From Chryseomicrobium sp. FSL W7-1435 (GTDB lineage Bacteria; Bacillota; Bacilli; Bacillales_A; Planococcaceae): 64,000 nt of DNA. Of this stretch, positions 7,306 through 48,440 are shown piece by piece (the first letter of the stretch is position 1; each line of letters starts with the position of its first letter). The stretch spans positions 1,364,001 to 1,428,000 of the forward strand of contig NZ_CP151997.1 in NCBI RefSeq assembly GCF_038595005.1, read 5' to 3'. Position numbers and translations under genes: made by a program. The notes beneath the pieces were generated by a model. That model did no database searches and was not told the origin of the DNA. It saw only the letters and a list, made by a program, of their open reading frames with translations.

Positions 7306-7362
7306 TTACGTGGCTAGCCACCAATTGGTTTGAAGTTCTATTTCAGAAAAAATAATGCGTAA

Positions 7363-7492
7363 GATTTAAAAACCCTACAGCTAGAACTCCATCTTTCAGG
7401 TGACGTTTGCTTAAACAGCTTTAGTAGGATTTAAAAACCATCCATCCAGAACATCAACCTTCAAGTGAAGTTTGTTAAATTAATCTAAGTTA
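7363..7492 (+). repeat. Two 65-bp tandem repeat units, element A
   Basis: Units begin at 7363 and 7428 with GATTTAAAAACC and share a CAGAAC-type centre. The outer 5' strand of the long hairpin starts in the same register at 7493, so it behaves as a third unit. The exact 65-bp spacing recurs in the other two elements. Confidence 0.8.
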
Positions 7493-7675
7493 AATTTGAA
7501 ATCCCTCCAGCCAGAACACCATTTCCTAGGTGAGTTTCTTCGAGCCTCCCCACGGCAGCCGAAAGAAGAACGCTTTCGGCTGCGTTGCCGGGTCTCGGTA
7601 AAACTCAGATGGCCTGGGAAATGGCATCCTGGCTTCCGGGATTTCAAATTGATTAAGTTAGTGGCATTGAATCCG

Positions 7676-7866
7676 TGATGAGCGAATAGTGCGTGGTGAT
7701 GATGGATAATCCGATTCTGATGAGTGATTTACTCATTCTGATGATTTAGTAAATCCGTGATGAGCGAATAGTGCGTGGTGATGATGGATAATCCGATTCT
7801 GATGAGTGATTTACTCATTCTGATGATCGATTAAATAATTCATGAGCGAGAAAACGAGTGTGATGA
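7676..7866 (+). repeat. TGATGA array with a perfect 75-bp duplication, element A
   Basis: Nine TGATGA motifs occur in 191 bases. The segment 7670-7744 is repeated without a mismatch at 7752-7826, an 82-bp period, which implies recent duplication. Small stems lie between motifs, for example ATGAGT (7720-7725) with ACTCAT (7731-7736). Confidence 0.85.
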
Positions 7867-8185
7867 ACACTACCCGAGATTAAAACACTTTAATTTCTAA
7901 AGATCTTACTAGTAAGGGCTTTAAGTAATAAAGAAGTTGCCTTTTGAATCAATATGCAGCAATCTCGCTGACCTACACGGTGAATGTTCACAAGCTTAAT
8001 CGAGCCTCACGTTAGCGCAGCGATTGGCCCTCTAGTTAATTCGAGCAAAATTAGAACTACTTTAAAATGAGTAGAGGCAGAGCCGACTCGAAGAACCGGA
8101 AAGGCACCACTTCCTGAAAAAAAGAACTTCAACTAACAGGATTCAACTGGAGAAGCTTGTGTAAGTTCGAACTAAGAAGATTCGC

Positions 8186-8230
8186 GCTGGGCCCGCTCGG
8201 ACAGAGCGGGCCCAGCCCTTTTCGTTCTTA
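8186..8230 (+). terminator. Terminal GC-rich hairpin of element A
   Basis: A 13-bp perfect stem, GCTGGGCCCGCTC (8186-8198) with GAGCGGGCCCAGC (8204-8216), is followed by CCTTTTCGTTCTT. It looks like an intrinsic terminator on the plus strand with an imperfect T tract. The same hairpin with compensatory base changes closes elements B and C. Confidence 0.6.
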
Positions 8231-8430
8231 ACTTGATCTTGAAAGCAAGCTTCGGAAGATGCCTCCGGATTAGAAAAAGTTCTTTGCCCAGTCCTTTTCA
8301 TACTTGATTTGATCTTGAAAGCAAGTTTCTCAACATTGCATCTGGATTAGAAGAAGTTTTTGGAGCAAAATTTAGTCCTTAATTTGAACTTGAAAGCAAG
8401 CTTAGTATGCTGCACAGAAAGTTCTTCAGA
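8217..8430 (+). repeat. Tail repeats of about 76 bp, element A
   Basis: Three diverged units carry TTGATCTTGAAAGCAAGC-like sequence at about 8235, 8311 and 8386. Each also has a CTGGATTAGAAGAAGTT-like end, which resembles the CAACTGGAGAAGCTT stretch of the conserved core just upstream. They look like duplicated 3' modules. Confidence 0.75.
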
Positions 8431-14592: not shown

Positions 14593-14725
14593 TTGAGTGG
14601 AGTGGAGGGGCTGACTCCGGAGGGATCAAAAAGCGGAACGTGAGACCCCACAGGCGCGTTCTTCCGCCGAGGAGACTCACGCGCGCCCTCGGAAAGCAGA
14701 CCCGCAATGGAACTCAAGTTTATTT
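14593..14725 (+). repeat. Bacillales-type interspersed palindromic repeat
   Basis: The stretch between ackA and its downstream hairpin resembles, from memory, a repeat common between Bacillaceae genes. Recognisable parts are GGCTGACTCCGGAGGG, GAGACCCCACAGGCGCG, CGCCGAGGAG and GCCCTCGGAAAGCAG. Its ends are imperfect inverted repeats (AGTTGAGT near 14591, ACTCAAGT near 14712). No coding potential is seen. Confidence 0.55.
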
Positions 14726-34801: not shown

Positions 34802-34830
34802 TTTATAGCTACTTGTTTAATTTAACTGGG

Positions 34831-35025
34831 ATTTGAAATCTCTCCACCCAGAATAGCATCCATCAAGAGAATTTTACTAAATCGAATTAAGAGGCATTTG
34901 AAGTCCCTTCACCCAGAACAGCATCCATCAAGAGAATTTTACTAAATCGATTTAAGGGGCATTTGAAATCTCTCCACCCAGAACAGCATCCATCAAGAGA
35001 ATTTTACTAAATCGATTTAAGAGGC
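34831..35025 (+). repeat. Three exact-period 65-bp tandem repeats, element B
   Basis: ATTTGAA begins units at 34831, 34896 and 34961, and the long hairpin starts in register at 35026. Units share CCACCCAGAA, GCATCCATCAAGAGAATTTT and TACTAAATCGA and are more than 90 percent alike by eye, so this amplification is recent. Confidence 0.9.
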
Positions 35026-35207
35026 ATTTGAAGTCCCTCCACCCAGAACACCATTTCCTAGGTGAGTTTCTGCGAGCCTCCCCACGTCAGCCGAAGGGAG
35101 AGCGCTTTCGGCTGCGTTGCCGGGTCTCGGCAAAACTCAGTTGGCCTGGGAAATGGTAACCTGGCTTCCAGGACTTCAAATTGATTAAGTTAGTGGCATT
35201 GAATCTG

Positions 35208-35398
35208 TGATGAGCGAAAAAATCGCTGTGATGAAGGAAAAAATTATTCTGATGAGTGATTTAAATTCGTGATGAGCGAAAAAAACGCTGTGATGAAGGA
35301 TTAAACCGTTCTGATGAGTGATTTATAATGGTGATGAGCGAAAAACGTGCTGTGATGATGGATTAAACTATTCTGATGAGTGATTTAAATAGTGATGA
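35208..35398 (+). repeat. TGATGA hairpin array, element B
   Basis: Ten TGATGA motifs occur in 191 bases, with TGATGAGC recurring at 35208, 35270, 35332 and 35393 (61-62 bp period). Small stems alternate with the motifs, for example AGCGA (35213-35217) with TCGCT (35223-35227) around an A-rich loop; later units keep the AGCG/CGCT pairing. Confidence 0.85.
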
Positions 35399-35738
35399 GC
35401 ATTAATAGTGATATCATGAACACTCACAGAGACAAACCAACTAAAATGGTCAAGATCTTACTAGTAAGGGCTTTAAGTATTAAAGGTTTTGCCTTTAAAA
35501 AAGCAATGACCTCCATCTCGCTGACCTACACTGTGTTTGGTTCATTACTCAATCGAGCCTCGCGTTAGCGCAGCGGTTTTCTAGCTTGTAAAATCGAGCA
35601 AAACTTGAAAAACACTAGATAAGTTTAGGCAGAGCCGACTCGAAAAAGTTGCAAGTCACCACTTCCTGAAAAAAAGAACTTCAACTAACCAGATGCAACT
35701 GGAGAAGCTTGTGTATGTTCGAACTAAGAAGATTCGCG

Positions 35739-35780
35739 CTTGGTCCGCTCGATTTGAGCGGGCCAAGTCCTTTTCGTTCT
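35739..35780 (+). terminator. Terminal hairpin of element B
   Basis: CTTGGTCCGCTC (35739-35750) pairs with GAGCGGGCCAAG (35756-35767), 12 bp with one G-U, followed by TCCTTTTCGTTCTT. The stem differs from that of copy A by paired substitutions. Confidence 0.6.
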
Positions 35781-35957
35781 TAATTTGAACTTGAAAGCAA
35801 GCTTCGTAAGATTCATCTGGATTAGGAGAAGTTCATTCCCTGATCTTATCGTTTTGACTTTGAACTTTTAAAGAGACAAGTCCGAATTTTATTACACTAG
35901 CGAGCAATTGCCTTTCTTGTTACACTAGAAGCAAAGGGATGAATGGAGGAATTGCTC

Positions 35958-47330: not shown

Positions 47331-47460
47331 TTGAAATCCCTCCAATTAGAAAACCTTACTTCAAGAGAAGGTTACTAAATCAATTTAAGTAAGATCTGAA
47401 ATCCCTCTAGCTAGAACACCTTTCTCCCAGAGAAGTTAAATAAATTAATCTAAGTTAGAT
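47331..47460 (+). repeat. Two 65-bp tandem repeat units, element C
   Basis: TGAAATCCC starts units at 47332 and 47397 and the long hairpin at 47462, again exactly 65 bp apart. The units are more diverged than in copy B. Confidence 0.8.
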
Positions 47461-47640
47461 TTGAAATCCCTCCAGCCAGAACACCATTTCCTAGGGGAGT
47501 TTCTTCGAGCCTCCCCACGTCAGACGAAAGGAGAGCACTTTCGTCTGCGTTGCCGGGTCTCGGTAAAACTCAGTTGGCCAGGGAAATGGTAACCTGGCTT
47601 CCGGGATTTCAATTTGATTAAGGTAGTGGCATTGAATCCG

Positions 47641-47831
47641 TGATGAGCGAATTGTACGCTGTGATGAAGGATAAAACGATTCTGATGAGTGATTGATCCA
47701 TTTTGATGATCGATTAAATCATTGATGAGCGATTACTACCTGGTGATGAAGGGAAAAACAATTCTGATGAGTGATTAATCCATTCTGATGAGTGATTAAT
47801 CCATTCTGATGATCGATTAGATCAGTGATGA
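47641..47831 (+). repeat. TGATGA array, element C
   Basis: Ten TGATGA motifs occur in 191 bases, the same span as in copies A and B. AGCG (47646-47649) pairs with CGCT (47657-47660), and ATTCTGATGAGTGATTAATCC occurs as adjacent duplicates near 47761 and 47782. Confidence 0.85.
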
Positions 47832-48175
47832 CTGAGAAAATGATTTCGATGAACACTCCTCTGAGACTAAACCACTTTAAATGGTCAAGATCTTACTAGT
47901 AAGGGCTTTAAGTAATACAGAAGTTGCCTTATAAATCTATGTGCAGTAATCTCGCTGACCTATAAGGTGAATGTTCACAATCTAAATCAGGCCTTGCGTT
48001 AGCACAGCCTGCCACCTACTAAGTCAAGTTCGAATGAACTAGTTCTAATAAATATTCAACTAGAGGCAGAGCCGACTCACCATCATTGAAACTCACAACT
48101 TCCTGAAAAAAAGAACTTCAACCAGCTGGATGCAACTGGAGAAGCTTGTGTAAGCTCGAACTAAGAAGATTCGCG

Positions 48176-48225
48176 CCTGTGGCCCACTCTGAAAAGAGAG
48201 GGCCACAGGTCCTTTTCGTTCTTAA
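48176..48225 (+). terminator. Terminal hairpin of element C
   Basis: CCTGTGGCCCACTCT (48176-48190) pairs with AGAGAGGGCCACAGG (48195-48209), 14 of 15 bp, followed by TCCTTTTCGTTCTT. The sequence differs from copies A and B but the stem is kept. Confidence 0.6.
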
Positions 48226-48440
48226 TTTGAACTTGTAAGCAAGCTTCGGAAGATGCCTCCGGATTAGAAGAAGTTTTTGGCCCAGTCCTTTTCGTTCTTA
48301 ATTTGATATTAAAAGCAAGCTTCGGAAGATGCCTCCGGATTAGAAGAAGTTCTTGGCCCAGTCCTTTTTGTTCTAAATTTGAACTAAAAAACAAGCTTTG
48401 TAAATGCAACTGGATTAGAAGAAGTTCATGTTCTAATTTT
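48211..48440 (+). repeat. Tail repeats of 76 bp, element C
   Basis: Three units are anchored at 48229, 48305 and 48381. Each contains CCTTTTcGTTCT, a GCAAGCTT block and GGATTAGAAGAAGTT. The first two also share AAGCTTCGGAAGATGCCTCC exactly. Confidence 0.85.

Follow-up and report, generated by a model that had tools for sequence, protein, structure and literature searches.

Intergenic repeats of the GAGACCCCGCAGGAG type are known from Bacillus genomes. The attC sites of integrons are imperfect hairpins with a variable apical stem, of which one strand is recognised. REP, BIME and REPIN elements, with their RAYT (Y1) transposases (PMC2817692, PMC3116915, PMC3733652, PMC12306157), are described as extragenic palindromes with imperfect stems, occurring in many copies and in mosaics, and palindromic MITEs, with bcr1 of the B. 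cereus group (PMC3733652, PMC2267715), as non-coding, dispersed and of the ~150-bp scale; these are features that the repeat described here has as well. The Bhal-1 stem-loop family of B. halodurans is 74 bp long and has 36 copies (PMC2267715). The long hairpin HP of Chryseomicrobium is a genus-level variant of such dispersed palindromic repeats and has no Rfam match at gathering in the window (the whole 64-kb stretch of DNA that was analysed); the matches listed in other stretches are all below gathering. Among the papers listed, judged by title or abstract start, there was no published description of HP or of the related class-wide repeat, which may nevertheless be in print.

The window belongs to a genome that consists of a single contig of 2.71 Mb. 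It holds three copies of HP:

7493..7650, + strand: long hairpin HP copy A
35026..35182, + strand: copy B of HP, sharing 91.7% identity with copy A
47459..47615, + strand: copy C of HP, sharing 92.4% identity with copy A; E 0.024 with the outside-genus model R2 (see below)

Copy A folds with an energy of -85.5 kcal/mol, compared with a mean of -46.4 for shuffled sequences (z -9.68), and 0/200 shuffles reach that energy. Its outer stem is formed by pairing of GAAATCCC with GGGATTTC; that of copy B is formed by GAAGTCCC (AAGTCC at 35031-35036) and AGGACTTC (GGACTT at 35171-35176). The original prediction was that both arms of the hairpin change together between copies. Upon reading the sequences, the replacement of AAATCCC/GGGATTT in copy A by AAGTCC/GGACTT in copy B was found to be a genuine double change from A-T to G-C, and the apical stem of copy C (47521-47547), with the arms CAGACGAAAG (47521-47530) and CTTTCGTCTG (47538-47547), carries an equally genuine change from C-G to A-T. 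The single G-U pair ascribed to the apical stem of copy B is present (CAGCCGAAGG / CTTTCGGCTG). A C-A mismatch at a pair near the outer-stem double change of copy B was absent from that account, and the stems CCATTTCC and GAGTTT, said to keep their partners, do so apart from one A-A break in copy C, in the CTAGG part (columns 49/136).

The HP alignment comprises 39 copies from two Chryseomicrobium genomes, 6 partial copies among 45 stretches having been left out. A structure of 48 pairs was derived from the same 39 sequences, which favours the pairing figures: 95.5% of the cells are paired, compared with 88.4% in shuffles, changes on both sides occur in 20/48 pairs, compared with 12.1, and the covariation score is 0.211, compared with 0.092. 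In each of these three measures 0/500 shuffles were as high. The number of further pair types in the 39 copies, 38 compared with 35.7 in shuffles, is not significant (97/500). When the partner is slid by 1-3 columns, pairing falls to 29-54%. The arms of HP thus change together, showing that the fold is being kept, and the conservation of this fold is supported. Independent change of the two arms, the outcome that would have spoken against the prediction, did not appear in the 39 copies, in which half-way mismatches nevertheless exist: one apical pair (columns 80/100) is C-G in 23/39 copies, A-T in 8/39 and a C.T mismatch in 8/39.

The imperfections of the HP core do not vary. In 39/39 copies columns 57/100 form a U.G pair and a T is bulged, and GAGCCTCC and GGGTCTC are likewise invariant in 39/39, surrounding an apical stem that covaries. 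C. aureum has two HP subtypes, with a short apical stem in 6/24 aligned copies. The conserved fold stands, while a functional transcript, as presumed by the SHAPE or DMS probing suggested with the prediction, does not follow from it. The HP sequences are copies of a dispersed palindrome, in which one arm can be corrected from the other, so that paired changes alone do not prove that a transcript is functional.

The core of HP resembles a palindrome found throughout the class, GAGCCTCCTC-(variable stem)-TGYGGGGTCTC. A relaxed pattern of this core occurs in 59/398 genomes of the class and 27/146 genera, with up to 145 copies (54+91), and the reversed-pattern control gave 0 among the matches listed. 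A set of 80 copies was drawn from 20 genomes, 5 of the copies being from Chryseomicrobium; duplicates were skipped, as were copies lying too close to an edge. In this set 73% of the tested positions pair, counting G-U, compared with 50% (at most 55% over 500 shuffles) when arms of different copies are combined at random. The lower-stem and apical pairs of this set take several standard forms. The imperfect core is also invariant in the wider repeat family, where the collecting pattern itself fixes the core letters.

A covariance model was built outside the genus, from 47 copies of 18 genomes with no Chryseomicrobium among them. Its matches in the window at E<=1 are HP copy C, HP copy A (E 0.3) and one further stretch only:

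14608..14702, - strand: canonical copy of the class-wide palindrome (E 9.4e-12 with the outside-genus model), between convergent acetate-kinase and universal-stress-protein genes

HP copy B has no match at E<=1. The model finds 6/6 of the C. aureum copies with a short stem (E 1.5e-5 to 0.029), as well as HP-like stretches beside the CORE module, described below, in two sister species (L240, 2.7e-4; L247, 5.4e-4). Long or half HP copies are present at 17 other loci, of which L068 alone has a match at E<=0.1. The locus L271 matches with 9.4e-8, having been collected with the core pattern itself. Since the long HP copies match weakly, HP is a probable, though unproven, branch of the class-wide repeat, a divergent and local one.

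BLAST of the fetched loci gave 45 HP stretches, at least 16 in this genome and at least 29 in C. aureum; these are lower bounds, because each genome search covered a limited number of places, both in scoring and in listing. The strict HP motif occurs in 2/261 genomes of the bacterial family, with 13 and 20 copies. Identity to copy A is ~90-96% in this genome (83.8% for the half copy L070) and ~81-85% in C. aureum. According to mechanical ORF calls, the gene upstream of HP runs in the same direction as HP in 16/16 copies here and in 19/22 assignable copies of C. aureum (3 opposite, 2 unassigned; 24 examined of 29). The genes upstream of the copies in the window encode SASP, isocitrate dehydrogenase and GAPDH, and at copies A-C the upstream gene's own terminator precedes the element (B and C judged by eye).

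Copies B and C are absent from the matching sites of C. aureum. At the site of copy A, two sister species have only ~70-90 bp between the matching flanks, and C. aureum has ~490 bp of other repeats. The site of copy B contains, in the same two sister species, an HP-like stretch and a CORE, which lie on the opposite strand. Relatives with and without the element at a given site, as are looked for in a MITE, were thus found for copies A, B and C, the site of copy B being otherwise occupied in the two sister species. Other intergenic repeats are seen at the same sites (L193, L194, L177), of the TTTATTCTACAAATC type in the sister species G002 and G003 and of the AAAGTTGCACACAAA type in C. aureum.

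Full HP copies were found 15 times, at 12 loci, all of them in the terminus-proximal half of the chromosome, at 1.09-1.95 Mb of G000:C1. GC skew of sampled stretches places the origin at ~0.33-0.455 Mb and the terminus at ~1.67-1.74 Mb, and on this assignment the leading strand is the GAGCC strand of HP in 15/15 copies.

Within the window HP is embedded in a mosaic having the order 65-bp repeats, HP, TGATGA repeats, a structured CORE of ~290 nt and 76-bp repeats:

7359..7479, + strand: 65-bp tandem repeats preceding copy A of HP
7670..7849, + strand: TGATGA repeats, copy A, with periods of 82 and 21
7966..8253, + strand: CORE copy A, ~290 nt, with a terminator-like hairpin at its end; training copy of the CORE model
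8217..8413, + strand: 76-bp repeats, copy A, which overlap the end of CORE
34820..35054, + strand: 65-bp tandem repeats entering the left end of HP copy B
35205..35400, + strand: TGATGA repeats, copy B, with periods of 62 and 21
35519..35805, + strand: CORE copy B, training copy of the CORE model
35767..35833, + strand: 76-bp repeat, copy B
47332..47490, + strand: 65-bp tandem repeats entering the left end of HP copy C
47641..47852, + strand: TGATGA repeats, copy C, with periods of 82 and 21
47953..48247, + strand: CORE copy C, training copy of the CORE model
48209..48427, + strand: 76-bp repeats, copy C

The TGATGA repeats were considered as C/D-box-like RNA and rejected, their Rfam matches being below the gathering score. 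A short palindromic motif, AAGATCTTACTAGTAAGG, stands ahead of CORE (7900-7917 in the window). Most composite elements have it too, in exact or almost exact form, and G003 has it once. The CORE model was built from 26 copies and used with strict filters, 7 candidates being scored per genome. Full-length CORE was found in 4/4 of the Chryseomicrobium genomes searched, and three partial, weak matches in the other 257 genomes of the bacterial family. Fetched C. aureum loci include HP without CORE, and CORE is also found without HP, in either orientation. Changes on both sides occur in 17/34 CORE pairs and the covariation score was reached in 0/500 shuffles; further pair types are not significant (433/500). 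When both strands are folded, CORE has no strand bias (minor G-T 26 and A-C 23 over the union of pairs). A first wobble count had suggested a + strand RNA and was dropped at this point, its signal being due to the structure having been chosen on the + strand.

Inverted pairs of CORE copies were also observed. Five close-set pairs lie in an S-layer gene cluster of this genome (L072:1723-18026), between S-layer-homology and cell-wall genes. Two further pairs (L452:5438-13492; L453:8543-11213) were seen in other species of the genus. In the sister species G003 an inverted pair flanks a type I restriction-modification operon, the pair and the operon being situated between argininosuccinate-lyase and Y-family-polymerase genes. 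C. aureum has a pair around an HsdM fragment with matching neighbour genes, both copies of which come from or overlap the training set of the model.

The two strands of HP are not equivalent. Of the two, the GAGACC strand folds at the lower energy in 37/39 copies with RNA parameters and in 36/39 with DNA parameters, and it is antisense to the upstream gene in 35/38 assignable copies. The better-folding strand is thus not the one expected of a 3'-UTR. In the 33 long copies the minor wobble cells, over pairs predicted on either strand, are 24 G-T and 74 A-C, a bias that vanishes over pairs predicted on both strands (G-T 11, A-C 12). Wobble changes do not favour the GAGCC strand, which is the one that was folded in the original prediction. 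The wider repeat family has no strand folding bias (60 vs 51 of 112 copies outside the genus). Where it lies between tandem genes, its GAGACC strand is sense in 59 copies and antisense in 19 (p 6e-6, the copies not being fully independent); the other contexts of the 112 copies are convergent (14), divergent (17) and unassigned (3). The orientation of HP to genes is the reverse of that of the wider family.

We give slightly better than even weight to the view that HP is a dispersed non-coding palindrome of the REP or MITE kind, multiplied in Chryseomicrobium and probably a branch of the class-wide palindrome, of which a folded strand is recognised by a putative factor. HP sits downstream of genes, and after their terminators in the window, as a module of a mosaic intergenic element. 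Its fold would be kept through recognition of a single folded strand by some putative factor, the GAGACC...GGGAGGCTC strand being the likelier of the two, and this recognition may be how the repeat spreads or is used.

It is unlikely that HP instead acts as RNA, that is, as a structured 3'-UTR or intergenic transcript element affecting stability, decay or termination, with its pairing selected in the transcript. The strong fold would suit such an element, as would the GAGCC strand running with the upstream gene in 16/16 copies here and 19/22 in C. aureum, and the tie between orientation and tandem genes in other genera. However, the gene-sense strand is the one that folds worse in 37/39 copies, the genes upstream of copies A-C terminate before the element, promoter-like sites in the copy A element show no excess (2 vs 2.1 expected), and the orientation to genes is reversed relative to the wider family.

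Rather improbable, too, is a history in which pairing is not selected and the arms are kept complementary by palindrome-correcting template switching or by gene conversion between copies. Such correction would be in keeping with the high identity among copies in both genomes, as in recent spread or concerted change, and with the double change in copy C, which is missing from its neighbours. It should, however, erase the imperfect core positions, which are invariant in 39/39 copies, and the mismatched half-way states persist. The invariant imperfect core would rather speak for recognition by a putative factor and against pure arm correction. That HP and CORE are parts of one non-coding RNA gene, present in the genus in many copies, is very improbable, for although CORE covaries, has a terminator-like end and is full-length in all four of the searched genomes of the genus, it occurs without HP and in either orientation, and has neither a strand bias nor an excess of promoter-like sites.

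As to what might move a palindrome recognised through its folded strand, mobilisation by RAYT is not supported. The palindrome was found beside the Y1 transposase gene at 0/20 of the Y1 loci examined (19 from repeat-bearing genomes; 36 Y1 loci fetched), the HP and CORE modules are absent at the 6 Y1 loci of the genus, and the PF01797 match is missing in 3/14 chosen high-copy genomes and present in 9/14 chosen repeat-free ones. Two Y1-transposase (RAYT-like) genes were seen here and two in C. aureum (L216, L220, L217, L221), with different palindromes of the GGTGCCTGTCACC / GGTACCTGTGC type nearby. An origin from a group II intron or retron was rejected: this genome has one RVT_1 match, and no HP or CORE was found in the fetched locus at E<=0.01. 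A lone reverse transcriptase of 307 aa is encoded at L213:1291-2214, and one of the same length in C. aureum; the protein is presumably retron-like, by its motifs. A plasmid or phage origin was likewise set aside, since no plasmid or phage sequence matched copy A at E<=0.01 and the exact motif was in no viral contig. Tentatively, and with more doubt than belief, it may be proposed that a putative non-RAYT enzyme acts on one folded strand of the class-wide palindrome, either moving or using the repeat, that the apical stems vary under the constraint of pairing, and that in Chryseomicrobium the palindrome has been joined to the genus-specific CORE, which would also bracket variable cargo such as the type I restriction operon.

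If the recognition of a folded strand is correct, a repeat present in 59/398 sampled genomes of the class has a fold kept by evolution, with no Rfam match or mobiliser found. Its many copies with varied apical stems are material for testing in which form, DNA or RNA, such palindromes are recognised.

The repeat differs from REP, BIME and REPIN elements, as these are described (PMC2817692, PMC3116915, PMC3733652, PMC12306157), in being longer, ~95 to 158 bp, and in that its loose core motif is absent at the 20 Y1 loci; the Y1 genes here have other palindromes alongside (by eye). The likeness to palindromic MITEs is one of description, and no clear target-site duplication was seen at copies A-C of HP, where the flanks were compared by eye. 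The comparison with attC is one of possible working only, HP being likened to it by the imperfect hairpin, the variable apical stem and the putative recognition of one strand. Bhal-1 (PMC2267715) is a stem-loop repeat of similar size from the same class and, likened by its description only, may belong to the same wide family.
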